This document shows positions 16,067 through 36,887 of a stretch of 55,549 nucleotides of DNA, piece by piece. The notes beneath the pieces are model-generated. The model saw only the letters and a program-made list of their open reading frames with translations. It made no database searches and was not told the DNA's origin. The stretch's first letter is position 1. Each line of letters begins with the position of its first letter. The DNA is from Denitromonas iodatirespirans (GTDB taxonomy: Bacteria > Pseudomonadota > Gammaproteobacteria > Burkholderiales > Rhodocyclaceae), in the NCBI RefSeq assembly GCF_018524365.1, contig NZ_JAEKFT010000030.1:1-55549 (forward strand), in the 5' to 3' direction. Position numbers and translations under genes: made by a program.

Positions 16067-16077
16067 GGCTGTGCCGG

Positions 16078-17592: not shown

Positions 17593-17605
17593 GGCGCGTG
17601 GGGCG

Positions 17606-18832: not shown

Positions 18833-18843
18833 GCCCGCCTCTT

Positions 18844-21417
18844 TCAGCTATCCGGGGTCTTTGCCGCCGCGGCAGCACGGACATGCTGGAGCAAGGCGTC
18901 GCGCTCGGCCTGCCGCCCGGCGCTACCGCTCTGGCGCAACTGTTCGCTGAGCGCAAGTTTGCCGGCAGCGCCTTCGGCGAGCATCGCCGGGTCTTGCGGT
19001 GACCCGGCGAGCCGAGCCAGACCGTCGCCGGCTTCCAGGCTGGCGTTGTCGCCGCTTTGGCGCTCCTCGGCGGGCGGTGCCTCGTCGGCGGGCGGCTCGC
19101 CTTCCCCGGTGCCCGGCGGTTCGGTGGGTGAATCGCTGCCGTCGACTCCGCGGGCATCCGCTGGCCCCGTGCCCGTGCCGGAACCGTTGCCAGACCCCCG
19201 GGCGCCGCCAATCCCGACACCGGGCTCGCCGGCCGGCGCACCGGCTCCGCCGAGGATGCCGCCACCCAGCCTGTCGTCGATGCCAGCGCCGATACCGGCG
19301 TTTCCACCAAAACCGTTCGTTGGCAGGAGCGCATCGAGCCCGTAGAACGAACTCAGCATGGACACCCGGTCGGTGGTGACTTGGCTGATCAGCGAGAATG
19401 CGCTGCCTCCTGCCCCGCTCGGTTCATGCACGCCCAGCAACGCGCCGAGCGGCGATCCGCTGGTCGTGCCGCCGAGGATCTGGCCGCCGAGACCCAGGTT
19501 TTCCGGCGTGCTGCGCACCGCGGCATTCGCGCCCAGTGCCGGGGACGCGGCCGGCGCCTCGAACACCGGGGGGGCAACCACCGCGTTGGTGACGGTGGTT
19601 TCTGCCGGCCAGGTCGGCGGGGGAATGATATCCACCACGGGGGGCGGCGTCGGCGTGGCGGCGGTGGGCTTGAAGGTGATCAGCGTCGTGCCGCTAAAAT
19701 CGCTGACGGTATCCACTTGCAAATTGCCGCCGGCCGCATTGCTCAGCGCCAGGGTCACTTCCACGGACGCAAAGTCCGTGCCGTTGGTATCGATTTCGAG
19801 GCTGCCCGAGCCGTTGAAGCGAACATTGGCGGTGGTGAGGCCGGTGATGCCGTTCAGCTGGATGACGTCGTCGGCGGCAAGGTCGCCGAGGGTGTCGCCA
19901 TCGAGATCCGATGCCGACCCCCTGAACGTATCGCTTCCTGTGCCGCCATACAGGAGGTCGGCTTGGGCGCCGCCATACAGCGTGTCGTCTCCGGCCTCGC
20001 CATACAGTTCATCGATCCCCTGCATGCCGGTGAGGACGTCATTGCCATCCCCGCCGTACAGGAAGTCGGCATCGCTGCCGCCGGAGAGTGTGTCGTTTCC
20101 ATTCCCGCCGTACAGTGTGTCGCTTTCTGAGTCACCGCTTAGCGTGTCATTCCCGTCGTCGCCCCAGAGGATGTCATTGCCTTTTTGCCCCCACAGCCAG
20201 TCGTTGCCATCCCCCCCACTCAGGTAGTCGTCACCCGTCGAGGCCATGAGCGTGTCGTTGCCGGCTCCCCCGAAAATCGTGTCGTTGCCATCGCCGCCAC
20301 TCAGGCCATCGTTGCCATCTTCTCCGTAGAGGTAGTCGTCTCCGGTCGCGCCATAGGCAAAATCGTTGCCGGCGCCGCCGTACAGGGTGTCATTGTCACC
20401 ACCGCCGTAGAGCGTGTCGTTGCCATCGTCGCCATAGACAATGTCTGCCCCGTCAAGGGCGGAGACCGTGTCGTTGCCGCCCAGACCGTAGATGGTGTCG
20501 TCGCCGGCCGTACCCGTCAGGGTGTCGTTGCCGGCCGTACCCGTGACGACGGCGAGCAATCCGTCATAGGCGGCGAACTGCGGTGCCACGGCCGTCGCCT
20601 TCTCGACCTCGCCGTGGCGCGCTTCCAGATCCCAGTCGCCGCCCAGCCAGCTTGCGCCGGTGGCATCGTCGGAAGCGGCGATGTCGGCTCCGGTGGCGGC
20701 GGCGAAGCGGCTCACGAAGGCCATGCCGGCTTCGCCCAAGGCGACGTCGCAGCCATAGAGCAGGATGTCGCCGGTCGCGCTCAGGGCGCCGCCCCAGGCT
20801 GCAAGGGTGTCGGCCTGATCGGCCAGGGTGGCCAGCGAGAGGGTTTCCGCCCCGAGATACACCGCGCCCTCGCTGCCATGCGAGACGAGATGCAGGGCGT
20901 CGAGGTTCTGGTAGCGGGCGAGGATGTCGCTGATCTGGTCGAGGGCGCTGGCGCCGGCGTCGAGCAGCCAGACATCGGTGCCGGCACGAACGTCGCCCAG
21001 CAGGTCGGCCAGATCCGGCACGCGGCTGTCGATGATCACCACTTCGCTGGCCTCGCCCTCGGCGTCGACCAGTTGCAGCAAGCCGTCGCGGTTGACGTCG
21101 ACGAGGCCGTCCAGCTCCGCCTGGGTAATGGCGCCTTCATTCAAGGACATGCCGCCAAGGGGCAGGGCGATGTCGGTGGCGGCGGTCGCGCCGATGGCGC
21201 CGTCGGCGAGAGCCGTGTCGACGAAAGTCTCCACCGCCGCCCCATCGAACACCAAGCGCGGCTCGAGCCGCATGAGGCCGGGCCGGGTGCGTACCAGTGC
21301 GCGGCCGGTATCGGCGCGATGGCTGCCGGCGCTCTTGCCGCGCTGCTTGTCGGTCTCGGCGACGGCAACAAAGGTGTCGGCGATCTTGCTCCAGACGGTG
21401 CGGTAGAGGCGGTTCAT
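18844..21417 (-). CDS. Secreted LEPR/DUF4347/RTX-repeat exoprotein
   Basis: 857 residues. The N-terminus [20 protein letters not shown] resembles the extended signal region of large exoproteins and is followed by a LEPR motif ([11 protein letters not shown]). DUF4347, a caspase-like fold, spans about 120-285 with candidate dyad H180 (HLVSHGSEG) and C223 (LLYGCDVA). About 23 nonapeptide Ca-binding repeats of the GGxGxDxLx type lie at about 290-497. A Pro/Gly-rich low-complexity stretch and a charged C-terminus ([20 protein letters not shown]) follow. ATG at 21417 has GGGAG upstream; a longer in-frame start lacks family sequence. It is surrounded by TolC, HlyD, M50-HlyD and glycosyltransferase genes. 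Likely a calcium-folded surface or released protein. Protease activity of DUF4347 is inferred from the dyad. Confidence 0.88.
19920..20545 (-). repeat. Coding tandem 27-bp repeats (RTX nonapeptides)
   Basis: About 23 imperfect 27-bp units encode GGxGNDTLY-type nonapeptides inside the exoprotein gene. The most similar units could recombine and change repeat number. Boundaries are approximate. Confidence 0.85.
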
Positions 21418-21633
21418 GGTGCTTGCTCCCTTCGCGCGCGGCATGTTGCCGGGCTCAATCATTCAATGGTCTCGGTCGGTCGAAGCATCAAAACGCCGCG
21501 ACGGCGGCGAGGTCTTCTGGCCCTTCGGAGAGGCCGGGGGCGCGGGCGCCATTGGGCGGATGCCCGCTTGCGTCCCCAACATGAGTTATCGGCACGCCGA
21601 CGAGATTCGTGAGGCGCTCGGCAAGCGGATCGC

Positions 21634-22482
21634 TCATTGCCCACGGCCCTCCGGCGGCGCGAGTTCAATCCTTCCGCTCATCCCGGCAATCAGCTCGCTG
21701 AAACTGCCGTCGATCACGGCGCTGGCCTTGACCGACTGGCTGATCGGGTCGACCCGCGCCCCCAGGCGCTGGATGCGTGCCGGGTAGCTCTTCTGGGTTT
21801 CGTCGATGAACACTCGGAACGTGTGACCGGGCTTCAACCAGGCGAGCCAGCGCGAGGGGACGATGAAATCGAGCTCCAGCGCGGAATCGTCGAGGATGTC
21901 GAGAAGTGCCGTGCCCGGTTCGACATATTGTTCGGCACGCACCTTCTGCTCGACCACGCGACCGGCGTACGGGGCGTAGATGTTGCATTTGGAGAGCGTT
22001 GCCTGGATGAGGGCGAGATCGGCCCGCGACTTGTCGCGCTCGGCGATGGAGGTATCCAGCTCGACCTTGCCGATGGCGTTCAGCTCGTTGAGTCGGGTGT
22101 TGGCGGCGTAATTCCGTTCGGCGGCGGCGAGTGCGGCTTTTGCCTTGTCGCGCTGGGCGGCCTGGATGACGCAGTCGAGGCTGACCAGCAGTTGGCCGGC
22201 CTTGATGCGCTCGCCTTCCTTGACGGTAATGCGCTTGACCTTGGCGCCGAGTTCGGCCGCAAGTGTCGTGTAGCGTCGCGGCGAGAGCTGGGCGCGGATG
22301 TCGAATTTGTCCAGCGCAGGGGCTGTCGAGGTCGTGGCCGCCGCCGGCGCTGGCGGCGGGGCCGCATGCGCGGCGGCGCTGGCCGCAAGAAGTACGAGCA
22401 GGCGCACCGCGGCGAGTCGCCCCGCCCGGTGTGAACAGAATCTCACGGCGCGCATGATTGCCTGGCGGGTCGCGCGGGGCAC
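21634..22482 (-). CDS. HlyD/RND-type periplasmic adaptor
   Basis: 282 residues. A signal sequence (RLLVLLAASAAAHAA) precedes a compact membrane-fusion-protein core: lipoyl half AELGAKVKRITVKEGERIKA, a short coiled-coil hairpin, the second lipoyl half IYAPYAGRVVEQKVRAEQYV and a beta-barrel. It lacks the long hairpin of HlyD itself and looks like the small MFP type. The GTG start at 22482 shares one base with the TolC-like gene stop (TAGTG), implying coupling; ATG at 22455 is an alternative nearer the hydrophobic signal. The RTX gene lies downstream across about 215 bp that hold no gene but include a GCGGGC/GCCCGC dyad at 21542-21567. Confidence 0.85.
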   Translation of the reverse strand: MPRATRQAIMRAVRFCSHRAGRLAAVRLLVLLAASAAAHAAPPPAPAAATTSTAPALDKFDIRAQLSPRRYTTLAAELGAKVKRITVKEGERIKAGQLLVSLDCVIQAAQRDKAKAALAAAERNYAANTRLNELNAIGKVELDTSIAERDKSRADLALIQATLSKCNIYAPYAGRVVEQKVRAEQYVEPGTALLDILDDSALELDFIVPSRWLAWLKPGHTFRVFIDETQKSYPARIQRLGARVDPISQSVKASAVIDGSFSELIAGMSGRIELAPPEGRGQ

Positions 22483-24035
22483 TACTGGCGCTCGGCCAGC
22501 CGTACGGGCTGTGCCACCGCACTCTCCATGGCGGCTGCGGCGAGCGGGTCTTTCTGCCAGGTCCGCAGGGCGTCATCGATCGCCTTGGAGAGATCGGGGA
22601 GCGACATGTCGTCGAGGCTGCCGATCGCCGGCTCCAGGCCGAGCGTCGCCTGTACCCGGCTGGCGGAGGCATGGACGGCGGCGAGCGCCTGGTAGCGGCG
22701 CAGCTCGGAAAGCAGCGCATTCGTGCGGGCGGCAACGAGGCTCAGCTGGCTTTCCTTCTGGACCTCAGCCGCACGGCGGGAGAGTTTGAGAAGGTCGTTG
22801 TCGACGGTGGCGAGCTCGTCGCTGCGCTGGTATTGGCGCAGCGCGTTGTCGTACTGCTGGGCAGAGAGGTGCACCAGGGACACGACGACCATCTGCAGCG
22901 CCATGCGCCGTGCTTCATAGACCCGCTCGTTGCCTTCGGCGGCTTCGAGGCGGGCCGGGGCGGAGAGCAGGTTGAAGAGGTTGAAATTGACGCGCAGGCC
23001 GGCCTCGTTCCAGGAATTGTTCACCAGGAAACGGTCGTCGTCATGATTCACGCTGTAGTTGAAGGAAATGCCGGGGAAGAGCTGGAGCAGCGACTTCCGG
23101 GTGTCGGCGGCGGCGATGCGGACGTTGTAGGCACTCTCGCGCAGGTCGGCGTTGCGGGTGAGGGCGATCTCTTCCATCGCGTCCAGTTTGAGGGCGAGCG
23201 GCTGCGGTTCGAGTTCGTCGGCAGCGGGCTCGACCAGCTGGTAGCGGGTACCGGGCGGCAGGTTGGTGAGCGCCGCCAGCTCGACCCGCGCCAGCCCCAG
23301 TTCCTGCTGCACGGCTTCCAGGGTGCGCAGGTTTTCGATGAGGGCACGCCGGTAGCGCAGCATCTCGGCCGGCGCCTTGATGCGCTCGTCGGTGACCTTG
23401 CGGGCATCGGCCAGCGCCGATTCGGCGAGCGCGATGTTTTCGCGGACGGCGGCTTCCAGCTTCTGGGCGCTGGCCGCACGCCAGAACGCGGCGCGCACGT
23501 TCTGGATGAGGTTGTGCATCGAGCGGCGGCGCCGTTCGCCGGCGACCAGCAGGCGGTCGGCGTTCTGCTGGGCGGTGTAGTAGCTGGCGCCGAAGTCGAG
23601 CAGGCTCCAGGTCAGACTGAGGTCGGCCACGGTGTGGTCTTTTTCGGTGCTGATGGAATTGGACAGGTTGGGCTGGCGGGTGGTGGCATTGATGGAATCG
23701 CGCACCAGGTCCTTGTCGCGCGTGTAGTAGCCGACGCCGGCCACCAGCTTGGGCAGCATGTCGAAGCGGCCCGCTTCGAGCAGCCCGGCCGCGTGGGCCT
23801 CTTCGAGCTGGTGGGCACGGTGCTCCAGGTTGAACTTCAGCGCCCGGGCAATGGCTTCGGACAGGCTCAGGGGGGCGGTGAGCGGGGGAACATTGGCTTG
23901 CGCCTTTTGCCAGTCGGCGCGGGTGATGGCGCGGAGCTCGTCGATCTGCAGGGGTTGCGGGTTGATGGCGCAGCCGGTGAGCGCGGCTGCGGCGAAAACG
24001 ACGATAGGGGCTTTGTGCCGGAATCGGAGCGGCAT
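22482..24035 (-). CDS. TolC-family outer-membrane efflux/secretion lipoprotein
   Basis: 517 residues. The signal peptide ends in lipobox LTGC (HKAPIVVFAAAALTGCAINP), so the N-terminus is acylated. The mature part is two repeats of coiled-coil and strand typical of TolC/OprM channels, rich in heptads (SLSEAIARALKFNLEHRAHQ, GLRVNFNLFNLL). It would form the outer-membrane exit of the exporter made with the downstream HlyD-like proteins. ATG at 24035 has GGAGG about 11 bp upstream and is the first gene of the leftward operon. The absence of an ABC ATPase or RND pump anywhere in the operon is notable. Confidence 0.88.
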   Translation of the reverse strand: MPLRFRHKAPIVVFAAAALTGCAINPQPLQIDELRAITRADWQKAQANVPPLTAPLSLSEAIARALKFNLEHRAHQLEEAHAAGLLEAGRFDMLPKLVAGVGYYTRDKDLVRDSINATTRQPNLSNSISTEKDHTVADLSLTWSLLDFGASYYTAQQNADRLLVAGERRRRSMHNLIQNVRAAFWRAASAQKLEAAVRENIALAESALADARKVTDERIKAPAEMLRYRRALIENLRTLEAVQQELGLARVELAALTNLPPGTRYQLVEPAADELEPQPLALKLDAMEEIALTRNADLRESAYNVRIAAADTRKSLLQLFPGISFNYSVNHDDDRFLVNNSWNEAGLRVNFNLFNLLSAPARLEAAEGNERVYEARRMALQMVVVSLVHLSAQQYDNALRQYQRSDELATVDNDLLKLSRRAAEVQKESQLSLVAARTNALLSELRRYQALAAVHASASRVQATLGLEPAIGSLDDMSLPDLSKAIDDALRTWQKDPLAAAAMESAVAQPVRLAERQ

Positions 24036-25620: not shown

Positions 25621-27296
25621 CGGTGTCTCCGCCCTTTGCCCTGTTCTACGACGGCGACGCCTACTCGACCGCCAACAAGATCATGGGCCGGCAATCGGCC
25701 GGCAAGGCGCTCATGAGCGGTATCGCTCGCACCTGGCCGAGCGCCACCGTGCGCGGCCTTGTCCGACGGCCGGCTGCGGGCGAGACCCTGGCCACGCAGT
25801 TGCGCGCCGATGGCTTTGCCGGCCGGATCGACTGCAGCGCGCTGCCCGACTGGCGGGTGGCCGTCGATGCGGGCACCCTCTACTACCCGGCACCGCCGGC
25901 CAAGGACATTGCGGCGGGGCGCAACCTGAGCGGCCCAAGCGCCTTCAGCCTCATGGGCGTGACCCACACGCTGGCCTCGGCCGGTGCCATGGATCTGCTG
26001 GCCGAGCTCATCCTGCCGCCCTTTCAGCCCTGGGATGCGCTCATCTGCACCTCACGGGCCGCGCATGCCCTGGTCGGCGGCCTGCATGACGACATGCGGG
26101 CCTACTGGCGCGAGAGCGTCGGTGCGACGCGTTTCGTCGACATCGAACGCCCGGTGATTCCGCTGGGGGTCGATGTCCCGGCCTTTGTCACTGGCCCCGG
26201 CGATCGCGCCGCCGCACGTGCCGCGCTCGGGCTGCGCGCCGACGAGATCGTCTTCCTGTTCGCCGGCCGGCTCGCCTTTCATGCCAAGGCCAATCCGGCG
26301 CCGCTCTATCAGGCGCTGCAAAAGCTCGCCGGCGAGGTGCCGCTGGTGTGCATCGAAGCCGGCGTCTTTGCCGGCGACAACATCCGCCAGGCCTATCTGG
26401 CCGCGCAGCGGGAGTTGGCGCCTGGCGTGCGCTTTGTCTGGGTCGATGGCGAGGATGCCGACCGCTACCGCCAGGCCTGGCAGGGCGCGGATGTTTTCGT
26501 CTCCCTGTCCGACAATATCCAGGAGACCTTCGGCCTGACGCCGGTGGAAGCCATGGCCGCCGGCTTGCCGGTGGTCGTGTCCGACTGGAACGGCTACCAG
26601 GACACGGTGCGCGACGGCGTCGACGGCTTCAGAGTCCCCACCGTGCTCGCGCCGGCGGGCGCCGGCGCGCAAATCGTCCTGCGCCACGCGCTGGGGGTCG
26701 ATAGCTACGATCGCTACATCGGCAGTGCAAGCCTGGCCACCGTCGTCGACCCGCAGGCGCTTGTCCACGCTTTTCGGCGCTTGGCAGGCGATGCCGGGCT
26801 ACGCAGGCGACTGGGCGCTGCCGGGCGGGCGCGGGCCGCGGCCGAATTCGATTGGCCGCTCATCCTGCACCGCTATGCCGAACTCGCCACGCACCTGGGC
26901 GAGATCCGCGGCCGGGCTGCGCACGAATCCGCCCGGCCCTGGCCGCAGCGCGCCGATCCGTTCCGGCGCTTTGCCGGTTTTGCCAGCGAGACCCTGGGCG
27001 GCGCCTGGCCGGTCAGCGCCCGGCCGGATGCCGCAGCGCGACTGCCGGCGCTTCTGTCGCTCCCTCTGGCCAACTTCGTCTTCGCGCCGCACACCTTCCC
27101 CCGTGAGACGCCTTCGGTGCTGCTCGATGGCTTGCGCCGGGGGCGGGCACACACCGTGGACACGCTGCTCGCCCAAGCGGGCCTGGCCAACGAGGCGGGG
27201 ATTCGGGCGCTCATGTGGTTGTGGAAGTTTGACCTGGTGGACATCCGGCCAGAAGCCGTGCCCACGCCAGCCCCTTCGACGGAAAGCAAGCCATGA
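25617..27296 (+). CDS. GT4-family glycosyltransferase, large form
   Basis: 559 residues. FALFYDGDAYSTANKIMGRQ opens the acceptor domain, EIVFLFAGRLAFHAKANPAP begins the donor domain, and VSLSDNIQETFGLTPVEAMA with AAGLPVVVSDWNGYQDTVRD forms the nucleotide-sugar site. About 120 extra C-terminal residues after the GT fold are of unknown role. It is coupled by ATGA overlaps to both neighbours, so the three transferases are likely made in fixed ratio and may build one glycan. Confidence 0.87.
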   Translation: MTVSPPFALFYDGDAYSTANKIMGRQSAGKALMSGIARTWPSATVRGLVRRPAAGETLATQLRADGFAGRIDCSALPDWRVAVDAGTLYYPAPPAKDIAAGRNLSGPSAFSLMGVTHTLASAGAMDLLAELILPPFQPWDALICTSRAAHALVGGLHDDMRAYWRESVGATRFVDIERPVIPLGVDVPAFVTGPGDRAAARAALGLRADEIVFLFAGRLAFHAKANPAPLYQALQKLAGEVPLVCIEAGVFAGDNIRQAYLAAQRELAPGVRFVWVDGEDADRYRQAWQGADVFVSLSDNIQETFGLTPVEAMAAGLPVVVSDWNGYQDTVRDGVDGFRVPTVLAPAGAGAQIVLRHALGVDSYDRYIGSASLATVVDPQALVHAFRRLAGDAGLRRRLGAAGRARAAAEFDWPLILHRYAELATHLGEIRGRAAHESARPWPQRADPFRRFAGFASETLGGAWPVSARPDAAARLPALLSLPLANFVFAPHTFPRETPSVLLDGLRRGRAHTVDTLLAQAGLANEAGIRALMWLWKFDLVDIRPEAVPTPAPSTESKP

Positions 27297-29755
27297 AGCG
27301 CATCGGTATCGCACTGCCGCTGGGCGCGCATGGCAGCGCAGGCGCCCATGCGCTCGATCTGACGCTGCAACTGGTGCTCAAGGGCTTGCGTCCGACCCTG
27401 CTCGACATGGCCGGGCATGTGGCGGTGGACCCGTTGCGCCGCCGCCTGCTGGCCCCCGCCCTGGATCAATACGCGCGGACCCGTACGCTTGTCGCCCGCA
27501 ACCCCGGGCGCCAATTGCCCTTTCCGGTGCTGCACGCCCTGGGCGAGCGCCTGAGCGCCGGCCGCACCATGGGGGACTCCCCGGGGCGCCCCGACATCGG
27601 CCTGGCGTTCTTTACCCATGTCGACATCCCCCCGGAGCATCTCCAGCGCGCCGCCGCTCTGCCGCTCATCGTTGCCGCTTCGTCCTGGCATACCCGGGTG
27701 CTTCGCGACCGGGGGCTCGACAACGTGGTCAATTGTCCGCCGGGCGTCGATCCGGCCCTGTTCCACCCGGCGCCGCGTGGCGGTCTTTTTCCCGAGCGCT
27801 TCGCGATCTTTTGCAGCGGGCCGCTCAGTTACCGCAAGGGCCACGACCTGCTTCTCGCGGCCTTTCGCGTCTTTCATCAACGCCACCCGGAGGCCTTGCT
27901 GGTCTGTGCCTGGGGTCAGTCCCCGCCGGAGGCCCCGGACGAACTGGCGGCCTCACTGCATATCGACGGCTGCCCGGGTGTGGTCGACGGCATGCTGCAG
28001 CTGGCGCCCTGGCTGGCGCGCAACGGCGTTGCGCCGGCGGCGGTGGTCGACCTCGGTCGTGTGCCCCACGGACAGATGCCGGGCATCCTGCGGGAGTGCG
28101 ATCTGGCGGTGTTCCCCGGGCGTGCGACGCATGGCATCCCCCGCGCCGTCATGGAGGCCCTGGCCTGCGGTTTGCCCGCCGTGCTTTCCGCCAACACCGG
28201 CCACCTCGACCTGCTGGGCGAGCATGTCTATGTGCTCAAGGCTCAAGGCGACATCGGGCGCCTGCGCGGTGATCCCGGCAAGGCGGGCTGGGGCGAGAGC
28301 TCGGTCGAGGAACTGCTGGCAGCGATGGAGAGCGCTTATCGCCGGCGCGCCGAGGCATCGGCCAAGGGCAGGGCGGCCGCTCGTTTCATGGAATCGCTGC
28401 AGTCGTCCCGCCAGGTCGACCGGCTGCTGGCGGCGATCCGGCGGGCCGACGCCGGGATCCCCGTGCCCGCCCCCAAGCTCAGTGAGGACTACCGCTGGGG
28501 GCTCTGCCTGCATCGCGGCGGGCAGTATGCCGAGGCACAAGCCGTCTACGACGAGATCCTCGAACGGGCCCCCGACCATGTCGGGGCACGCATGGATCGC
28601 GGTCACGTTCGCCGTGAGCTGGGCGATGCGGCCGGTAGCGAGGCCGATTTCCGCACCCTGCTCGCCGCCCGGCCCGACCACCCCCAGGCCCTGCACGGTC
28701 TGGGGAACCTCCTGAAACGCCGGGGCGCGATCGAGGAGAGCATTACCTGCCTGCGTCGTGCGCTGCGCGCCGCGGATACCCCCTCGATCCACTGGGACCT
28801 GGCCTGGTGCCTGTTGCTGTTGGGACGCTACCGCGACGCCTGGCCGCACTTCGAGCACCGCCACGCGGCCCTCGGTTTGCGCACGCCCGCCGCGGACAAG
28901 CCGCGCTGGGATGGCCAGCCGGTGGTGGCGGGGACCCTGCTGGTGCTCGACGAGCAGGGCTTGGGCGACACCCTGCAGTTTCTCCGCTTCTTGCCACGGA
29001 TTCCGACGGGGCCGGGGGGGCGGGTGATTTTTGCCGGCAAGCCGGCCACCCTCTCGGTGGTGCGCCGCATCCTGCCCGAGGCGGACGTGTTCGATTGGGA
29101 TCAAGCGCTCCCGCGCACCCAAGCCTGGGTGCCGCTCATGTCCTTGCCGCACTGCCTGGGCGTGACCAGGCCCGAGGAGATTTGCCCCCCGTCGCCTTGT
29201 CCTGGCGCCCTCGTCGAGCCCGCGCGTGTGGCGCAGTGGCGCCGCCAGGTGCGCGGCAACGACGATCGCCCCGTGGTGGGGTTGTGCTGGCGCGGCAACC
29301 CGGATTTTTCGGGTGACGCGGTGCGCTCCCCGGGGTTGGCGGTGCTGCAGCCCATACTGGCGGTCGCGGGGCTGCGTTTCGTGTCCCTGCAGGTCGGGCC
29401 GGGGCGGCGGGAAATCGCCGACCTCGGTCTGGGCGACATACTCCATGACGTCGGCGGTGCCATCGAAGCCGACGGTGCCAACGTGCTCGATACCCTGGCG
29501 GTGCTGGAGAGTTGCGACCTGGTCCTGACCTCCTGCACCTCGATGGCGCACATGGCCGGACTGGCCGGGCGGCCGGGGCGAGTGCTGCTGAGCACGCGCT
29601 CGGACTGGCGCTGGATGACTGGCCGCAGCGACTCGCCCTGGTACCCCTCGCTCAGGCTGATACGTCAGCGTTCGCCCGGCGATTGGGCGGGCGTGGCGCA
29701 GGCGGTCGCGGCGGACCTGGCCGACTGGTGCAAGGCGACCCTGCGCGGAAACTGA
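27293..29755 (+). CDS. Three-part protein: GT4 - TPR - GT9/GT41-like transferase
   Basis: 820 residues. About 1-385 is a GT4 domain (PLSYRKGHDLLLAAFRVFHQ; IPRAVMEALACGLPAVLSAN). About 395-530 is a run of TPR units (AEAQAVYDEILERAPDHVGA, DHPQALHGLGNLLKRRGAIE). About 540-820 is a second GT-B-like domain (LLVLDEQGLGDTLQFLRFLP; PVVGLCWRGNPDFSGD; LVLTSCTSMAHMAGLAGRPG) of the kind fused to TPRs in many protein O-glycosylation loci. TPR-linked transferases often recognise protein acceptors, as in OGT. The gene converges on the leftward sugar operon with only 18 bp between stops and no clear terminator. Confidence 0.86.
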   Translation: MKRIGIALPLGAHGSAGAHALDLTLQLVLKGLRPTLLDMAGHVAVDPLRRRLLAPALDQYARTRTLVARNPGRQLPFPVLHALGERLSAGRTMGDSPGRPDIGLAFFTHVDIPPEHLQRAAALPLIVAASSWHTRVLRDRGLDNVVNCPPGVDPALFHPAPRGGLFPERFAIFCSGPLSYRKGHDLLLAAFRVFHQRHPEALLVCAWGQSPPEAPDELAASLHIDGCPGVVDGMLQLAPWLARNGVAPAAVVDLGRVPHGQMPGILRECDLAVFPGRATHGIPRAVMEALACGLPAVLSANTGHLDLLGEHVYVLKAQGDIGRLRGDPGKAGWGESSVEELLAAMESAYRRRAEASAKGRAAARFMESLQSSRQVDRLLAAIRRADAGIPVPAPKLSEDYRWGLCLHRGGQYAEAQAVYDEILERAPDHVGARMDRGHVRRELGDAAGSEADFRTLLAARPDHPQALHGLGNLLKRRGAIEESITCLRRALRAADTPSIHWDLAWCLLLLGRYRDAWPHFEHRHAALGLRTPAADKPRWDGQPVVAGTLLVLDEQGLGDTLQFLRFLPRIPTGPGGRVIFAGKPATLSVVRRILPEADVFDWDQALPRTQAWVPLMSLPHCLGVTRPEEICPPSPCPGALVEPARVAQWRRQVRGNDDRPVVGLCWRGNPDFSGDAVRSPGLAVLQPILAVAGLRFVSLQVGPGRREIADLGLGDILHDVGGAIEADGANVLDTLAVLESCDLVLTSCTSMAHMAGLAGRPGRVLLSTRSDWRWMTGRSDSPWYPSLRLIRQRSPGDWAGVAQAVAADLADWCKATLRGN

Positions 29756-29773: not shown

Positions 29774-31636
29774 TCAACCGAGGATGGCAGCCACCGCAGC
29801 GCGAATGTCGGCGTCGGATGCCTCGGCATCCACAGTGACCACGTTGGCCGCGCCATGACGCAAGGACGCGATCCGGTCGTTCAATACGTTCAAGTACATC
29901 GTCCAGTATTCAAAGCTGGTCGAATGGCGCGCAAAGCGGGGGGTGTCGATCAACGCCGGCCCGACCTGGCGGACATCTTGCGCGACGAGCACCCAGGTGG
30001 CCTCGGGATAGGCACGGGCGAACAGGGGCCACAGCGGCGCCAGCCTGAAGTCCTTCAAGCTCCACCGGCCGTCGCCATCCCAGCCCTGTTGGCGCAAGGC
30101 CTTTTCAATCTGGAAGCGCAGCCAGGGGAAGGGGGGGAGCCGGTCCGGCGGGGGCGGGAAGACGATGCAGTCTTCATCGGCGCCCAGCTTCTTCAGGATG
30201 TTGAAGATCAGGCGGTGCTGTATGAGCGGATTCTCATGGGTGTCGACGGTCGCTGGCGTGTCGGTCTGCGCATCGGCACCCACCCAGATGCCCTGCGCCG
30301 CGAACGCCTGGAGTACGCGCGACAAGCCGGCACCCGGCAAACCGGTGACGAAGATCGGACGATCGGCCGGTTTGCCGCTCGGCGCCGGGGGTGTTGTCTC
30401 CCGCGACTTCCACGCCGTCAAGGCCGATGTGATCCAGCGATCCACGGGGTCGAGCGACAGCGATTCCTTGGCAATCGTCGTTGCGCTCGGATAAATGGAT
30501 CTGGCGTCCGCCTCCTTGCCCCACAGCCAATGGGGCGTGCCATGCATGATGGCCAAGAGCGGAATGCCGGCGCCGCCGGCCAGATGCCAGTTGGCCCCGG
30601 CCACGGAAATCGCGCCGGCCAGCCCCCGCACCAGGTCGAAGGTGGCCAGCGCATCGGCTGTCAGATCGAGAAAAGGCACCTGGATGTTCGGATGCGCCCG
30701 AAGAAAGGCCCTCTCTTCGGCCGTCATGTCGTACTGAAGAACCAGGTAGTCGACATGCTTCGGCAGGAATTCGACAAAGAAGGGCAGCGGAATGTGACGT
30801 TCTTCGCGGCGGTTCTGTGCCGAGCCACCGCGCCAGCAGATGCCGAACACGGGTTTCGCATGCCCAGCGCGCAGGGGCGTGTCGAACACCGCCGCCGGCG
30901 CCAGCGACCGTGTGTTCCGCCACGCGCGTCGAAGGAAGTCGACCGCCAGAATGGCCGGCTTGCCGTCGAAGGCCGCGGCGTCGAGCGTGCTGCGATAGGT
31001 CGCTTGCGGAAAGTAGCGCGTGACCAGCCGCCGGTATTTGGGCATGCCGCAGAAGGTCGATGTGCCGTGACGCGTCGAAGCCTTGATGTGCAGCAGGCTG
31101 ATCAGCACCTCGCCCATGCCTTGTTCGAGCACGATAAGGTCGGGATCTTCGTTCGGATCGTCCGTCATGTAGTGATACTGCAGCGGCGCCATCAGGCTTT
31201 TCGGGGTGTTGATGGCGCGGTATCTCTCCTGGTAGAGCTCAAAACCGACGGTGTATTTCCTTTTCGCCAGACAATGCAGGCCGAGGGTGTAGCGGAAATC
31301 GGCCAGCTCGTTGTCGCTGTATCGATGATCCTTCCGCAGGCGTCGTGCGGTCGCGAAATCGCCCAAGCGGAGGCAGAGCCGGTAGCGAATGGTCGGGTGG
31401 AATCGGAAATCGATTCTTCGATTGATGGCCCGGGCCTTGTCCAGATCGCCGATGCCGTAGATGGCGCATGTCAGGAGGTAGAAGAAATACCTCGGCTGGC
31501 GATCTTCGGGGATGTCGTCCTCCCCGAGTGTCTGCAGGGTCGACCACAGCGCGGAAAACTGCCCCTGACGGAACAACTGCTCTGACGACTGGAAATAGTC
31601 GTCCCAATCGATCGGGCGGGATTCAGGCATGGTCAT
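29774..31636 (-). CDS. TPR - GT-like - sulfotransferase-like fusion protein
   Basis: 620 residues. About 1-170 is helical and TPR-like (SEQLFRQGQFSALWSTLQTL, LDKARAINRRIDFRF). About 180-400 resembles the TPR-linked GT9/GT41-type domain (PVFGICWRGGSAQNRREERH; SVAGANWHLAGGAGIPLLAI). About 425-620 begins with a P-loop-like RPIFVTGLPGAGLSRVLQAF and ends in a fold like PAPS-dependent sulfotransferases. If functional it would both glycosylate and sulfate an acceptor; the sulfotransferase label is tentative and a kinase is possible. ATG at 31636 overlaps the stop of the shikimate-dehydrogenase-like gene (ATGA). It is the last gene of the leftward operon. Confidence 0.72.
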   Translation of the reverse strand: MTMPESRPIDWDDYFQSSEQLFRQGQFSALWSTLQTLGEDDIPEDRQPRYFFYLLTCAIYGIGDLDKARAINRRIDFRFHPTIRYRLCLRLGDFATARRLRKDHRYSDNELADFRYTLGLHCLAKRKYTVGFELYQERYRAINTPKSLMAPLQYHYMTDDPNEDPDLIVLEQGMGEVLISLLHIKASTRHGTSTFCGMPKYRRLVTRYFPQATYRSTLDAAAFDGKPAILAVDFLRRAWRNTRSLAPAAVFDTPLRAGHAKPVFGICWRGGSAQNRREERHIPLPFFVEFLPKHVDYLVLQYDMTAEERAFLRAHPNIQVPFLDLTADALATFDLVRGLAGAISVAGANWHLAGGAGIPLLAIMHGTPHWLWGKEADARSIYPSATTIAKESLSLDPVDRWITSALTAWKSRETTPPAPSGKPADRPIFVTGLPGAGLSRVLQAFAAQGIWVGADAQTDTPATVDTHENPLIQHRLIFNILKKLGADEDCIVFPPPPDRLPPFPWLRFQIEKALRQQGWDGDGRWSLKDFRLAPLWPLFARAYPEATWVLVAQDVRQVGPALIDTPRFARHSTSFEYWTMYLNVLNDRIASLRHGAANVVTVDAEASDADIRAAVAAILG

Positions 31637-32517
31637 GTTTGAAGCGCCCCGGTCATGGCCCGGTCGACGACGGCCGCCGCGACATCGGGGTGGGCCAGCT
31701 GGAAGCCGCGCACGGCCTGCAGGAGGTTCATGCGGGCGCCGCCGCAGCAAACGACCCCGGTGGGCATGGCGTTCAGAAAAGCGGTGTCCGCCGGTTGATA
31801 GACGACATCGAAGGCCAGCTTCACACGCCCGGCATGCTGTGCGAAATCCGGCGGTAGGGGGCTGGCGCCGAGATGATCGGGCGCCGAGCCGAGCACGGTG
31901 CCATTGACCAGCACGGTCGCCTGCGCGAGCGCCGTGCCACAGGCTGCTGGTGCGACCAGCGCTACGCCCATCCACCGCGCCAGGGCCACGGCGGCTTCGT
32001 CTTCGCAGGCGCGGGTGGCGACGACAATGCGCGCCACCCGGGGGCGCAGCGCATTGACCACCGCCTTGGCCGCTCCGCCGAAGCCGAAGACCAGCACGGT
32101 GTCCGCACGGCTCAGCCCGGCATCGTTCAGCACCTGGGCGGCGGCAAGGCCGTCGGTGTTGGCGCCGTGCAACCGCCCGCGGGCATCGCGTGACAAGGCA
32201 TTGACCGACACAATGCCCTGGGCGCTTGGGTCGAGGCGATCCGTGCCCAACCAGTGGGCGACGGCTTGTTTGTGCGGCACGGCGACCGCGCCGCCGACGA
32301 AGGCGGGGTGTGCGTCCAGCCAGGCCAGCAGGTCCGCCAGGCGATCGCCGGTGACGTCGAATGGCAGCATGCGACAGTCGCGGCCCAGCGTTCGATAGAC
32401 CGCATTCCACAAGCGCGGCGATCGCGCGCCCTGTGAGGGATGGGCGCCGATGATGGCCGCAAACTCGCCGGCGGGCAGCGCCAGCGGGTTGTCGATGAAC
32501 GGGATCGTCGCGCTCAT
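31633..32517 (-). CDS. Shikimate-dehydrogenase-like oxidoreductase
   Basis: 294 residues with the AroE layout. The substrate domain keeps VAVPHKQAV with the catalytic Lys and GANTDGLAAAQV with the catalytic Asp, and the nucleotide domain has VLVFGFGGAAKAVVNAL and VLVNGTVLGS. The C-terminal NLLQAVRGFQLAHP matches AroE helices. The N-terminal substrate motif is altered (IIGAHPSQGARSPRLWNAVY in place of the usual GxPIxHSxSPxxHN). It lies between a DAHP-synthase-like gene and a transferase fusion, both with ATGA overlaps, so it probably acts on a sugar or cyclitol acid made by this operon rather than being the housekeeping AroE. Substrate not determinable here. Confidence 0.83.
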   Translation of the reverse strand: MSATIPFIDNPLALPAGEFAAIIGAHPSQGARSPRLWNAVYRTLGRDCRMLPFDVTGDRLADLLAWLDAHPAFVGGAVAVPHKQAVAHWLGTDRLDPSAQGIVSVNALSRDARGRLHGANTDGLAAAQVLNDAGLSRADTVLVFGFGGAAKAVVNALRPRVARIVVATRACEDEAAVALARWMGVALVAPAACGTALAQATVLVNGTVLGSAPDHLGASPLPPDFAQHAGRVKLAFDVVYQPADTAFLNAMPTGVVCCGGARMNLLQAVRGFQLAHPDVAAAVVDRAMTGALQT

Positions 32518-33404
32518 TTCACGCGTCGGCCCACGGCCTTCGCCACCGCGTCCATGTCGTCCATGAGCTGGCCGAAGGCGTCGAAGTCGATGGGTTGCAG
32601 CGGGTCGACCGCTGCATTGTCCGGATCCGGGTGCACTTCGAGCATGACGCCGTCGGCCCCTGCCGCGATCGACGCCAAGGCCATCGGCTTGACCCATGGC
32701 CGCCAGAAGGTGGCGTGACTCGGATCGGTCACCACCGGCAAATGCGTTACTTCGTGGGCGGCGGGCACGACCTGGAGATCGAGCAGGAAACGCGAGGAAC
32801 TGCGGTGGGTGTGGGCGGTGGCGACGCCGCGTTCGCACAGGATCACTCGCGGGTTGCCCTCGATCAGGATGTACTCCGCCGCCCCCAGCCAGTCGCGCAA
32901 GGAGCAGCCGAAATGGCGTTTGAGCATGACCGGTTTGCCGGTCTTGGCGACCCGCGTCAGCAGCGGAAAGTTCTGCATGTTGCGGGCGCCGATCTGGAGG
33001 ATGTCGGCCACGTCGGCGACCGCATCGACGAAACGCTCCTCCATGACCTCGGTGATGATCGGGATGCCTGCCGCTTCGCGCGCGATCTTCAGCCACGCCA
33101 GGCCGTCCTCCCGTGTTTCCGTGTACTTCTCCGAGCGGTAGGGAAAGCTGAGCGGTTTGAACGCACCGCCACGCAGAAAATGGGCGCCGCTGGCCTTGAC
33201 CGATCTCGCGGTCTCGACGATCAAGGCTTCGGATTCGACCATGTTCGGCCCGGCAAAGATCGGCACCAGATCACCGCCGAACTCGACACCCTGCACCGCG
33301 AAACGGGAGCGGTGGTCCGGGTGTTTCTTCGCCGCCAACGGGAATTTGTCGATCATGTCCGCGTCGGACACGTCCTTTCCGGGGGCCTTGTTTTCAATCG
33401 GCAT
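32514..33404 (-). CDS. DAHP/KDO8P-synthase-family aldolase with altered metal site
   Basis: 296 residues, type I-beta DAHP synthase/KdsA fold. Motifs: FAGPNMVESE, FLRGGAFKPLSFPY, IITEVMEER, DILQIGARNMQNFPLL, PVMLKRHFG, ILIEGNPRVILCERG, LPVVTDPSHA, GADGVMLEVHP. Enzymes of this family condense phosphoenolpyruvate with an aldose phosphate to a 3-deoxy-2-ulosonate. DAHP synthases have GPCSVES here; this protein has Asn in place of the metal-binding Cys, as metal-independent KDO8P synthases do, and KPRTSPYSFQG is changed to KPLSFPYRSEK. It therefore probably uses another aldose substrate. Its neighbours are an AroE-like gene (ATGA overlap), Gfo/Idh and CMP-transferase genes. ATG at 33404 has GGAG upstream. 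Confidence 0.85.
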   Translation of the reverse strand: MPIENKAPGKDVSDADMIDKFPLAAKKHPDHRSRFAVQGVEFGGDLVPIFAGPNMVESEALIVETARSVKASGAHFLRGGAFKPLSFPYRSEKYTETREDGLAWLKIAREAAGIPIITEVMEERFVDAVADVADILQIGARNMQNFPLLTRVAKTGKPVMLKRHFGCSLRDWLGAAEYILIEGNPRVILCERGVATAHTHRSSSRFLLDLQVVPAAHEVTHLPVVTDPSHATFWRPWVKPMALASIAAGADGVMLEVHPDPDNAAVDPLQPIDFDAFGQLMDDMDAVAKAVGRRVK

Positions 33405-33458
33405 TGTGCGGCTCCATGCAAGCAGTCAAGCAAAATCCGTTCAGCGAAGGCACCGCCC

Positions 33459-34514
33459 CTAGGACCGACCGAGTCGGGACGAGCGCGGGTTGTCGTCAAG
33501 GCGGACCCAGGCGCCGGTCTCGACGCTCGCATACAGGGCATGCACCAGGCGCAGCGTGCTCATGGCCGACGCAATCGTGATATCCGGGCGGGTGCGCCGC
33601 TCGACGCTGTCGACCAGGTCGCGGATGTACAAGGAATGGCTCAGGCCATAGCCGCTCGGCACCTCGACGCTGCATCGTGCGGCCAGGGTGGCGTCATCCT
33701 CGCTGGCATTGACCAGGTCCCATTCGTCGATCCTGTTCAGCGCGATGCCGCCCACCCGGATCCTGCCGCCTTCACCGACCACCGACAGCGAGGCCTCGAA
33801 GTCTCTCGGCCGTGCCGCCGTGGTGGCCTCGATCGTCGCCAGGGCGCCGCTCTTGAAGCGCAGCACCGCGGCCAGCGTGTCCTCGGCCTCGAGCGTGTTC
33901 ATGCGATTGGCGGCGACGGCGCAAACGGCATCGACCGGCCCGCAGATCCACTGAAGCGCATCGAGATGATGAATGGCCTGCTGGTTGATCACACCGCCGT
34001 CCATGGCCCAGGTGCCATGCCAGCCGTCTTCATAGTAATCCTGGTAGCGACACCAGTGCAGACGGACACTCGCCGTCACCAGGGTCTTCAGACGCCCGGT
34101 CTCGACCGCCGCCTTGGCGGCGCGCAGCGCCCGGTTCCAGCGATTCTGGAACACCGTTGCGCAAAACAGCCCTCGCGTCTCGGCCAGGGTGTCGAGCGCG
34201 GCGGCTTCTTCCGGCGTCATGGTCACCGGTTTTTCGCAGACCACACTCACGCCGTTCTCGAGCGCCAGCCGGGCATGCGCGAAGTGATGGCCCGACGGCG
34301 TGAGCACGAACATGACATCGATCGCGCCGGCATCGAGCATGGTTGCCGCATCGCGGAAGGCGGGGCAGCCGAAGGCCTGTGCCAGGCGTGCGGCCTTGTC
34401 CGGGTCGGTGTCGCACACCGCCACGACCTCGAACCGGTCGACCGGGTCGATCTCGAGCAGCATCTTGCGGTAGTGCTCGGCGACTCGGCCGCAGCCCAGC
34501 AATGCGGCTCTCAT
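33459..34514 (-). CDS. Gfo/Idh/MocA-family oxidoreductase
   Basis: 351 residues. The N-terminal Rossmann fold starts AALLGCGRVAEHYRKML, the family motif is VVCEKPVTMTPEEAAAL with the catalytic-site Lys, and GGVINQQAIHHLDALQWICG carries the active-site His. Members oxidise or reduce sugars and their nucleotide derivatives with NAD(P). Within this operon it likely modifies a ring position of the sugar acid or its precursor. ATG at 34514 follows a GGAG site; 30 bp separate it from the gene before and 54 bp from the DAHP-synthase-like gene after. Confidence 0.87.
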   Translation of the reverse strand: MRAALLGCGRVAEHYRKMLLEIDPVDRFEVVAVCDTDPDKAARLAQAFGCPAFRDAATMLDAGAIDVMFVLTPSGHHFAHARLALENGVSVVCEKPVTMTPEEAAALDTLAETRGLFCATVFQNRWNRALRAAKAAVETGRLKTLVTASVRLHWCRYQDYYEDGWHGTWAMDGGVINQQAIHHLDALQWICGPVDAVCAVAANRMNTLEAEDTLAAVLRFKSGALATIEATTAARPRDFEASLSVVGEGGRIRVGGIALNRIDEWDLVNASEDDATLAARCSVEVPSGYGLSHSLYIRDLVDSVERRTRPDITIASAMSTLRLVHALYASVETGAWVRLDDNPRSSRLGRS

Positions 34515-34544
34515 GAACGCGTTCTCCTGACCGGAGCCGCCGGA

Positions 34545-35921
34545 CTAAGCGACAGGCTCATGCTTCAAAAGAGGCAGGCAGCGCTGCAGCGCCTCCTCCG
34601 TGCGGATTTCAACACTGGCCAGCGGATGGCGGACGGAGTGCAGGCCGATATGCTCGCCGAACAGCGTGCCCGCTCTGAGCAAGGCCGGGCGTACCACGCA
34701 GCCCAATCCCATCAGACCGAGATGCGCGCGCTCCTCGCTCAGTGCGCGCGGCACGAAATCGCGCTTGCCCACTTGTCGCACGCCATGCTCGCCGTCGAGC
34801 CAAACCGGCCGGCTCTCCGGTTTTGCCGCCAACACCGTGTCGAAGCCCTTGTCCAGCGCCAGCGACACCATGTCATCGATCATCCCCGGGTCGCGGAAGG
34901 GGTGCGTTTCCTCGACGACGACCACCAGATCGAAAATGCCGAGGGTCTTCTCCATCTCGGTCAGGCTGTAGGTCAGCACTTGCACGATGTCGACATACTT
35001 CTCCGACAGGGCGGCAGGCCGGATGAACGGCACGCTGGCGCCATGGCGGCGGGCAAGATCGGCAGTGTCTGCACAGTCTGTGGACACGATGATGTCCGTC
35101 AGCGATGTGCACGATGTCAGATAGTCGATGGTGCTTCCCAGCAGGCTGACGCCATCGTGCTGCAGCGAGTTGCCGCGCACCGGCACGATGGCGGCCACCC
35201 GGATGGCGCCCTCGGCGATCTTCGTCATGTCCGCGTGGGGGCCGTGGAGACCTTCCATGATCTGGACGATCTGCTGCGCCCGCGAGATGTCGCGGTCCTG
35301 ATGAATGCCGTGATAGTGATAGACGCTGGCAGTCGGCTCGTAGGCGATTTTCAGCCCGGCCCGGATCACCTCGACCCCCCAGACGCGATCCTCGATGTTG
35401 CTCACCTGTTCGTCGAAGGGGAAGCGCTGCCAGATATCCCGGCGCAGCGCGCTGTTCGCGTTGTGGAAGAAGGAATCCTTGACCTGTATCCGCGGGTCCA
35501 GGCCGAAGGTGATCGCCAGATCGCGCTTGTCGGCCGCCGGGGTAAACGACAACGGCTCCTGCCGCCCATAGACGCCCGCAATCTCTGGGTCGTCGAGGCG
35601 GGCAACCAGGTTGGCCAGCCAGTGCGGGTCCACCGGAATGCAGTGGCCGGAAATGATGGCAATGATCTCGCCCCTGCTGGCCCGGATGCCATCGTTGATC
35701 GCCTTGCCCGGCAGGAAATCGTCGATCTCGACCAGCGTCACGCCATAGCGCCTGGCTCTGGCGACGGTCCGATCGGTGGAGCGGTTGTCCACCAGAATGA
35801 TTTCGTGACGGGTATAGGTCTGCTTGGCGATGGCCTCGAGGCAAAGGCCGATCCAGCGCTCCTCGTTCCGCGTGCGAACGATGATCGAAACCAGCGGTGC
35901 GTGAGACATGTCAGGGCTCAT
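34545..35921 (-). CDS. GT2 glycosyltransferase fused to a degenerate CMP-sugar-synthetase-like domain
   Basis: 458 residues. About 1-230 is a GT2 (GT-A) transferase: VSIIVRTRNEERWIGLCLEA, ILVDNRSTDRT, EIIAIISGHCIPVDPHW, VWGVEVIRAGLKIAYEP. About 235-450 looks like an NeuA-type cytidylyltransferase (VAAIVPVRGNS, IIVSTDCADTADLARRHGAS, LVVVVEETHPFRDPGMIDD). The nucleotide-binding loop IPARGGSKGxPxKN is reduced to VPVRGNSLQHDG, losing the Lys residues, so this half is probably a sensor or inactive. The start overlaps the stop of the true CMP-sugar-synthetase gene (ATGA). The fusion suggests direct handling of a CMP-activated sugar, but a GT2 that uses CMP-sugars would be unusual. Confidence 0.82.
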   Translation of the reverse strand: MSPDMSHAPLVSIIVRTRNEERWIGLCLEAIAKQTYTRHEIILVDNRSTDRTVARARRYGVTLVEIDDFLPGKAINDGIRASRGEIIAIISGHCIPVDPHWLANLVARLDDPEIAGVYGRQEPLSFTPAADKRDLAITFGLDPRIQVKDSFFHNANSALRRDIWQRFPFDEQVSNIEDRVWGVEVIRAGLKIAYEPTASVYHYHGIHQDRDISRAQQIVQIMEGLHGPHADMTKIAEGAIRVAAIVPVRGNSLQHDGVSLLGSTIDYLTSCTSLTDIIVSTDCADTADLARRHGASVPFIRPAALSEKYVDIVQVLTYSLTEMEKTLGIFDLVVVVEETHPFRDPGMIDDMVSLALDKGFDTVLAAKPESRPVWLDGEHGVRQVGKRDFVPRALSEERAHLGLMGLGCVVRPALLRAGTLFGEHIGLHSVRHPLASVEIRTEEALQRCLPLLKHEPVA

Positions 35922-36652
35922 GACCGGTCGTCGGTAAAGAGCGGGACCCGCTCAGGGTGATGTTCGGCCAGATACTCGATCGCCTTTTCCGCGAGGAACA
36001 GATCGAAATCGGTGTGGATGTCGATCGATGTCTCGGGCAGGTTATTGGGCATCAGGTGCACGCGGTCGCCGATACGGCGGCCTTCGCGCCACAGCCGGGC
36101 CCGCGAAGCGCAGGCCAGCCCGGTGTCTTCCCGATAGAGCTTCTCTCGGATCTGTCGTGACGAGTAGTCGCGCATCCACGGCAGCACGCGTGCCCAGTCC
36201 CCGGCCGCGGTCTTGTGCCAGTAGTTCTTGGTCGTCTGATGCACGGCGAAGGCACTGTCCAGTGCCGGGTCGTCGATCAGCGCCTGGACGGCTTGTGTGA
36301 TCCAGTCGGGGGTTCGGAAGACATCGGTGGCGGTCAGAAAGACACAAAGCTCGAAGGTGTTGCCGACATGCGCTTCGTAGGCCATCAAGGCCTGCTGCAG
36401 GGTGGCTTCGGTGGTGGTCAGGTCTTGCGCCAACTCGGCAGGGCGCAGGAACGGCACGTCGGCGCCGGCGGCGCGTGCGCATTCGGCGATTTGAGCATCG
36501 TCCGTGCTCACAAACACACGATCGACAACCCCGGAGGCCAGGGCCGCCTTGATCGGCCAGTCGATCAGCGGCCGGCCGGCGAGGTGCTTGATGTTCTTGC
36601 GCGGCAAGCCTTTCGAGCCGCCGCGGGCAGGAATGATGCAAATCGTTTTCAC
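35918..36652 (-). CDS. CMP-N-acetylneuraminate-synthetase-like cytidylyltransferase
   Basis: 244 residues. ICIIPARGGSKGLPRKNIKH is the CTP-binding loop, followed by GRPLIDWPIKAALASGVVDR, VFVSTDDAQIAECARAAGAD, VPFLRPAELAQDLTTTEATL and a FLTATDVFRTPDWI segment. These enzymes join CTP to nonulosonic acids (sialic, legionaminic, pseudaminic) or KDO. It opens the leftward operon. The start is GTG at 36652 because the preceding in-frame residues up to the TTG at 36670 add nothing family-like. No NeuB or UDP-GlcNAc epimerase is present; the only PEP-condensing enzyme is the DAHP-synthase-like protein downstream. Confidence 0.86.
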   Translation of the reverse strand: MKTICIIPARGGSKGLPRKNIKHLAGRPLIDWPIKAALASGVVDRVFVSTDDAQIAECARAAGADVPFLRPAELAQDLTTTEATLQQALMAYEAHVGNTFELCVFLTATDVFRTPDWITQAVQALIDDPALDSAFAVHQTTKNYWHKTAAGDWARVLPWMRDYSSRQIREKLYREDTGLACASRARLWREGRRIGDRVHLMPNNLPETSIDIHTDFDLFLAEKAIEYLAEHHPERVPLFTDDRS

Positions 36653-36887
36653 AGGCCATCCAAAAGGCAAAAGCAGATCATCTCAAACCTTGCCGTGCCG
36701 CTGGCGACGGCGCCGGCAGCGCGACGCTCACCGTCGAGGCCTCGTGACCCATGGCGCAATGGCAGATCCGGCGTGTTGGGCCTCGCGCCAGGGCGGGCAG
36801 GTATTCGCTCCGGTCGCCAGTTTGCCTCAGGCCGCAGTCGTTCGCACAGGCGCGCCATTGGGGGCCGAGCCGGTGTATCGTTGCCGG

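Follow-up and report, generated by a model that had tools for sequence, protein, structure and literature searches.

NeuB and its relatives PseI and LegI condense phosphoenolpyruvate (PEP) with a sugar aldehyde, and NeuA couples the product to cytidine monophosphate (CMP). Type I-beta 3-deoxy-D-arabino-heptulosonate 7-phosphate (DAHP) synthase binds PEP and erythrose 4-phosphate (E4P), and every DAHP synthase reported up to 2019 was a metalloenzyme (PMC6362186). Here we describe an operon of Denitromonas iodatirespirans (assembly GCF_018524365.1, contig NZ_JAEKFT010000030.1; the 55,549 nucleotides analysed, positions 1 to 55,549, are hereafter called the window) that encodes, next to a NeuA-type cytidylyltransferase, a PEP-dependent synthase with the fold of DAHP synthase I-beta. 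We consider it probable that this operon is a stand-alone surface-sugar cassette and makes a CMP-activated 2-keto-3-deoxy sugar acid by a route of its own.

The window synthase and its family have in common with type I-beta DAHP synthases the fold, the PEP residues and three metal ligands (His, Glu or Asp, and Asp), but they differ by a KPL[ST]FPY motif instead of KPRT, by an Asn in place of the metal-binding Cys (in the window and 81 other rows), by inserts and by a surface-sugar gene context. The metal-free class of 3-deoxy-D-manno-octulosonate 8-phosphate (KDO8P) synthases, or KdsA, has the same Asn (PMC3052366). As is proposed for the window synthase, these enzymes provide a 3-deoxy-2-ulosonate for CMP activation, but the window synthase is far below the cut-off of their family model. 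It also lacks KANRS, the KdsA motif, and the genome has a KdsA of its own whose motif reads KANRSS. NeuB, PseI and LegI resemble the proposed system in chemistry and in activation by NeuA, and belong to another synthase family. EpaA and EpaB, which act in 8-epipseudaminic acid formation, are comparable in that a CTP_transf_3-domain protein and an oxidoreductase modify a CMP-activated ulosonic acid; however, EpaB is a short-chain dehydrogenase, neither AroE- nor Gfo/Idh-like, and the pair comes without a synthase (PMC12053666). Each fold in the operon is already known; what appears to be new is the synthase subfamily, a fusion of a family 2 glycosyltransferase (GT2) with a degenerate NeuA-like domain, and the operon that unites them. 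In one open-access library we found no description of any of the three.

The genes of the operon are as follows, from its upstream end:

35918..36652, minus strand: NeuA/PseF-type cytidylyltransferase, 244 residues (PF02348, 89 bits; GTG start at 36652, a TTG at 36670 being also open)
34545..35921, minus strand: GT2 glycosyltransferase (N-terminal half) with a degenerate NeuA-fold domain (C-terminal half), 458 residues
33459..34514, minus strand: Gfo/Idh/MocA dehydrogenase, nearest to WlbA-type sugar 3-dehydrogenases, 351 residues (PF01408, 90.7 bits; PF22725; PF02894)
32514..33404, minus strand: PEP-dependent synthase, DAHP synthase I-beta fold, 296 residues (PF00793, 184 bits; TIGR01361)
31633..32517, minus strand: AroE-like dehydrogenase, 294 residues, ATG start (PF08501, 39.8 bits)
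29774..31636, minus strand: transferase-like protein, 620 residues, ATG start (no Pfam family above cut-off)

Three junctions (NeuA/GT2, synthase/AroE and AroE/620-residue gene) are 4-nucleotide ATGA overlaps, and a divergent LysR-type gene (PF00126 and PF03466) starts upstream. A preliminary description of this DNA had recognized four gene types at 31633-36652 on the minus strand, and the Pfam scores above bear it out; the end coordinate it gave is the in-frame GTG of NeuA. Its gene list was right as far as it went, but two more genes are present, the GT2/pseudo-NeuA fusion (34545-35921) and the 620-residue gene (29774-31636). It also passed over the replacement of the metal-site Cys by Asn and the wide distribution of the cassette. 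The operon is not a chance grouping, since the gene set recurs across several phyla.

Active site and ancestry of the synthase

The window synthase passes the model for DAHP synthase (TIGR01361, 286.8 bits for a cut-off of 267.75) and fails that for KDO8P synthase (TIGR01362, 96.9 bits for a cut-off of 314). The NeuB family PF03102 matches residues 95-161 only (67 residues, 22.7 bits), and the SAF domain is absent. Membership of the KDO8P synthases or of NeuB was rejected because of these scores.

We aligned 90 family rows (the window, 86 loci retrieved with a motif pattern and three relatives from a similarity search) with 15 more distant outgroup rows, leaving out loci L062 and L096 as second copies of L029 and L028. 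Residue counts are given over the rows with a letter in the column, and numbering follows Aro1A (PMC6362186). According to that source, PEP is bound in the type I-beta enzyme by R60, K65, S119, R120, K141 and R171, E4P by R67 and T68 of the KPRT motif, and the metal by C36, H206, E232 and D243. Five of the PEP residues are kept in every family row with a letter (R60 and K65 90/90, R120 88/88, K141 87/87, R171 86/86). The E4P motif reads KPLS in the window, where its Leu is Leu85, and KPL[ST]FPY in the family, with inserts after it. Arg67 is replaced by Leu in 90/90 family rows and retained in 15/15 outgroup rows; as 86 of the 90 were retrieved by a pattern that demands Leu, the independent rows number four, all of them with Leu. 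The T68 column holds Ser in 31 and Thr in 59 of the 90 rows.

In the Cys column of the metal site the family has 82 Asn (Asn54 in the window), six Cys and two gaps, as compared with 13 Cys, one Gly and one Asn in the 15 outgroup rows. The His (86/86) and Asp (85/85) ligands are invariant, and the Glu column holds 79 Glu and six Asp. In KDO8P synthases, metal-free catalysis needs the Cys-to-Asn change together with changes around the metal Asp (PMC3052366). Because the window synthase shows the same replacement and an altered KPRT motif, we predict that it is metal-free and that its acceptor is other than E4P.

By similarity, 12 of 398 genomes of the phylum matched at E 1e-40, namely the window's own, one at 75%, one at 65% and nine at no more than 43%. 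In a tree of 96 rows (IQ-TREE, LG+C20+F+G4, after dropping five short and four distant rows), the synthase family (85 rows) is supported at 100/100 and an Asn clade of 79 rows (78 with Asn and one without a letter) at 100/98; the rows nearest to the window synthase are those of a sister genome and of Marinomonas ostreistagni. The six Cys-bearing members, from Acidobacteriota, Nitrospirota, Chloroflexota, Omnitrophota and Parcubacteria, lie outside the Asn clade and are not resolved as a clade of their own (47/81). The simplest history would have the acceptor motif altered first and the metal site lost once, later, although five long branches were flagged (L085, L045, L097, L089 and L099) and the long join between ordinary and family rows leaves the deep order unsure. 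Beside AroE, the basal Cys-bearing clusters L069 (725-1666) and L089 (232-1233) contain a deviant NeuB with a SAF domain (80 and 116 bits).

Partner genes and their recurrence

The cytidylyltransferase matches TIGR03584 (PseF) at 133 bits, under the cut-off of 205.7. Its ARGGSKGLPxKN motif, which binds cytidine triphosphate, and SIDIHxxFD, corresponding to the metal-binding DIxxxxD, are conserved over 44 rows (46 loci with a match of at least 190 aligned residues, minus rows at 40% identity or less, plus the window). The best solved relatives of this protein are CMP-nonulosonate synthetases. In three SAR11 loci (L036, 4881-6632; L046, 4474-6216; L034, 4369-6111), the NeuA of the cassette has 580-583 residues, and by reading its C-terminal half is methyltransferase-like, which suggests that the sugar made there may be O-methylated.

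In the fusion protein, the GT2 half (PF00535, 79 bits, residues 12-163) is joined to a NeuA half in which six columns of the KGLPxKN stretch are gapped in 92-100% of 42 rows, and which stays below the PF02348 cut-off (17.7 bits for 22.6). A profile of this C-terminal half matches CMP-NeuAc synthetases at 4.6e-18. We also searched with an AlphaFold2 model of the fusion (mean predicted local distance difference test, pLDDT, 91.2; predicted TM-score 0.63): Foldseek puts two-domain GT2 polymerases on top, with poor superposition (root mean square deviation about 20), followed by CMP-Pse and CMP-Neu synthetases, to which the C-terminal half corresponds (target TM 0.74-0.82). Among 200 genomes of the order, only partial GT2 matches were found besides the window, in four genomes.

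The Gfo/Idh protein has two outstanding relatives, 3q2k (215 bits) and 3q2i (193 bits), the next entry scoring 71; with a family profile the scores are 292 and 297 bits, the next being 116. We take both entries to be WlbA. The UDP-N-acetylglucosaminuronic acid 3-dehydrogenases WlbA and WbpB thus appear from these scores to be the closest solved relatives, but by Pfam the operon has no WbpE-, WbpD- or WbpI-type partner. WbpB is a 3-dehydrogenase according to PMC10622841.

The AroE-like protein falls under all the AroE equivalog cut-offs listed (at best 125.7 bits for 252). Its model (pLDDT 95.9) has the shikimate dehydrogenase fold, Lys71, Asn94, Asp110 and Gln255 are invariant in 33 rows, and the catalytic Lys, Asn and Asp are found in 100% of rows with a letter. 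The carboxylate site, however, reads GARSP versus HSFSP in the shikimate dehydrogenase 1nvt, so that Ser-x-Ser has become Ala-x-Ser; Ala is present in 98% of rows, and locus L085 retains Ser-x-Ser. A sugar-reducing member of the AroE family has been described, 5-ketofructose reductase (7cok, 7col), a close homologue of which was inactive on 5-ketofructose (PMC7954740). It is not the nearest relative of the window protein, which scores 139 bits with it versus 183 with 1nvt.

The 620-residue protein is 57% identical to the protein at the same position in Marinomonas ostreistagni and weakly resembles glycosyltransferases with tetratricopeptide repeats (TPR; E 1e-4 and 6e-4). Its C-terminal part, by eye, has a P-loop and is sulfotransferase-like.

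The synthase motif pattern occurs at 88 loci in genome contigs, which include SAR11 (Pelagibacteraceae), other Alphaproteobacteria, SAR86, Prochlorococcus, Marinomonas, Roseibium, Nisaea, Thalassobaculum, SAR324 and Acidobacteriota, among others. Viral contigs gave no match to the pattern. Among plasmids, 112 records matched by similarity, each at less than 60% identity. Each locus is a tile of at most 8 kb and many are cut; gene presence was counted in the 39 that offer at least 3 kb before and at least 1.1 kb after the synthase: NeuA is found in 30, GT2 in 32, the pseudo-NeuA half in 24, Gfo in 33 and AroE in 35. The full core (synthase, NeuA, GT2, Gfo and AroE) is present in 25 and the exact order of the window in 18. 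Marinomonas has a compact island of six genes, whose proteins are 49-81% identical to those of the window. Within the window's own genus the operon is carried by only two of the ten genomes searched, which points to a gain by transfer. A radical SAM/SPASM protein, often directly after the synthase, is seen in ten tiles (L036, L040, L046, L053, L056, L060, L065, L108, L109 and L111; the call was made on cluster c6 by scanning L060 as its representative).

Proposed route and competing explanations

How could these enzymes work together? In the scheme that we favour, the synthase would condense PEP, with no metal ion, with an aldose lacking a terminal phosphate, giving a 3-deoxy-2-ulosonic acid. 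The Gfo/Idh and AroE-like dehydrogenases would oxidize and reduce carbons of the ring or of a precursor, adjusting oxidation state or stereochemistry; the recruitment of an AroE would be explained, because in its pyranose form an acid of this kind looks like quinate. NeuA would couple the product to CMP and the GT2 protein would transfer the activated sugar, its dead NeuA half perhaps serving to recognize it. We infer the order of the steps, the acceptor and the product.

The preliminary description had proposed a CMP-activated 2-keto-3-deoxy sugar acid made through a DAHP/KDO8P-type synthase, and this core idea fits the sequence evidence. Its choice of an aldose phosphate as the acceptor is weakened, as the Arg that binds E4P (PMC6362186) is Leu throughout the family, and the C7 product that it put forward has no better support than C8 or C9. 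Within the favoured scheme, an unphosphorylated acceptor has a slight edge, because the KPRT Arg is lost and the conserved gene set includes no phosphatase. A C9 product would be the likeliest, at not quite an even chance, with C8 or C7 behind it: C9 is mildly favoured because NeuA resembles CMP-Pse, CMP-Neu and CMP-Kdn synthetases more closely than it does KdsB.

More tentatively, and with the balance tipping somewhat towards doubt, we suggest that nature may have three families of enzymes that make 2-keto-3-deoxy sugar acids, those of KDO8P synthase and NeuB and, as the third, that of the window synthase. This third family would descend from a DAHP synthase that depended on metal, would have given up the metal site a single time and would use a non-phosphorylated sugar; with its WlbA-like and AroE-like dehydrogenases it would lead to an undescribed CMP-sugar, handled by a GT2 enzyme with a dead CMP-sugar synthetase as recognition domain, and SAR11, Prochlorococcus and other marine bacteria would carry the product on their surface.

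The enzymes could instead be new and the sugar known, the cassette being another route to Kdn (ketodeoxynonulosonic acid), Kdo (3-deoxy-D-manno-octulosonic acid) or a close known ulosonic acid. We regard this as unlikely, though it is the best of the alternatives. Kdn requires just PEP and a hexose, the conserved set has neither aminotransferase nor acetyltransferase, and the second-best solved relative of NeuA, PpNeuA (83 bits), is described as a CMP-Kdn synthetase. On the other hand, two additional dehydrogenases would be superfluous for Kdn or Kdo, and KdsA and KdsB are already present in the window genome.

Another possibility is that NeuA activates a NeuB product and that nonulosonic acids are decorated with an acyl or ring substituent produced by the synthase, Gfo/Idh and AroE. 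NeuB is indeed found, at 195 bits or more, in 13/13 of the other operon genomes tested and also in genome G209, and at loci L042 and L075 the synthase lies beside NeuB and a gene that looks PseG-like by eye. However, NeuA and the synthase are kept without a true NeuB in two genomes. In the window genome, whose listed completeness is 100%, nothing matches PF03102 at E <= 0.001 and KdsB is the sole PF02348 match besides the operon's; in the sister genome with the same operon (G582) the only PF03102 match (23 bits) is the synthase itself; six of eight other genomes of the genus have NeuB at 209 bits or more. Moreover, NeuB genes mostly come with a separate NeuA close by: in 11 of the 13 genomes, by hand count, there is within 10 kb of a NeuB a PF02348 match that does not belong to the operon, so NeuB and the cassette likely serve separate pathways in those hosts. 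We therefore think a role in decoration improbable, more so than a known sugar. The lack of NeuB in the operon, noted in the preliminary description, thus extends to the whole genome; its statement that UDP-GlcNAc 2-epimerase is missing holds among the operon genes, the genome as a whole not having been searched. A supply of sialic-type acids from elsewhere, which the same description had raised as a counter-case, is unlikely here and is rejected for the window genome alone, not for other hosts.

That the synthase makes ordinary DAHP and AroE ordinary shikimate-type rings for an aromatic or cyclitol decoration, as in aminoshikimate clusters, is very unlikely: the synthase does pass TIGR01361, and the set of DAHP-type synthase, AroE-like and Gfo/Idh proteins recalls RifH, RifI and RifL, but KPRT is altered in 90/90 rows, the metal Cys is lost in 82/88, AroE has lost the first Ser of its carboxylate-binding pair, no dehydroquinate synthase is seen among the labelled recurrent neighbours, and housekeeping copies lie elsewhere in the genome (AroG 599 bits, a second AroF/G/H 468, KdsA 405, AroE 261 and KdsB 306, each over its cut-off). 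Ordinary DAHP, the other counter-case of the preliminary description, is accordingly improbable given the two DAHP synthases, KdsA, KdsB and AroE found elsewhere. An ordinary shikimate role was rejected as the principal explanation on account of AroG, the second AroF/G/H and AroE and of the two altered acceptor and metal residues.

Several observations nonetheless weigh against the stand-alone cassette. Six basal family members retain the metal Cys, and an outgroup row of KPRT type (L024) also has Asn in that column, so Asn alone is not diagnostic. CMP-sugars are not known to serve as donors for any GT2 enzyme. The synthase stands without its partners in three of the 39 flanked loci, and in G209 neither NeuA nor GT2 is found within about 9 kb of it. 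Within the genus, the absence of NeuB is not significantly associated with the operon (Fisher p 0.13). NeuB is present in 14/16 synthase-bearing genomes tested, so in most hosts the NeuA of the cassette could have another supplier, and a role in decoration keeps some probability there; in Marinomonas the nearest second PF02348 match is about 25 kb from NeuB, and in Prochlorococcus AG-409-M05 the NeuB contig has no PF02348 match besides the operon's.

Should the proposed cassette be real, a separate enzyme family would be added to the makers of CMP-activated sugar acids, and the loss of metal through a Cys-to-Asn change would be known from a second case within this fold. The NCBI equivalog model (TIGR01361) would name the window enzyme a DAHP synthase, and a surface-sugar gene can thereby pass for an aromatic amino-acid gene in SAR11 and Prochlorococcus genomes. 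The cassette occurs in marine bacteria of very high abundance, about whose surface sugars little has been learned; the acidic sugar that they would display would become testable. This is relevant to phages, whose attachment commonly relies on glycans of the cell surface.

Destination of the sugar and surrounding genes

SAR11 and Prochlorococcus have no flagella, so a polysaccharide is the likelier target there. In Nisaea nitritireducens the cassette lies, by eye, near a flagellin gene, and a 697-residue protein near it is 27% identical over 379 residues to the product of the window open reading frame at 27293-29755. The flagellin transferase FlmG combines TPR with GT-B (PMC7591256).

Beside the glycan genes, the window contains at 13934-24035 type I secretion genes (HlyD, M50-HlyD and an outer membrane efflux protein), an RTX/DUF4347/ESPR protein and a glycosyltransferase-like gene; that the RTX protein is a glycoprotein target is speculation. 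A transposase (PF01609 with PF13808) lies at the edge of the island (12223-13356), and at 5380-10881 there is an 1833-residue protein with AAA, DUF4011, MTES_1575 nuclease and WGR domains, possibly a defence helicase-nuclease.

A different gene pair was seen in Ca. Pelagibacter HTCC9565 (L147, 12074-13569) and Prochlorococcus MIT 9302 (L146, 15935-17420), where the gene of a KdsB-type cytidylyltransferase (PF02348, 141 bits) overlaps or lies next to that of an HpcH/HpaI aldolase (PF03328, 96 bits; read by eye in MIT 9302). The HTCC9565 locus also has 6-phosphogluconolactonase-like and 2-hydroxyacid dehydrogenase genes. This pair might form another CMP-ulosonate module, one based on a pyruvate aldolase.

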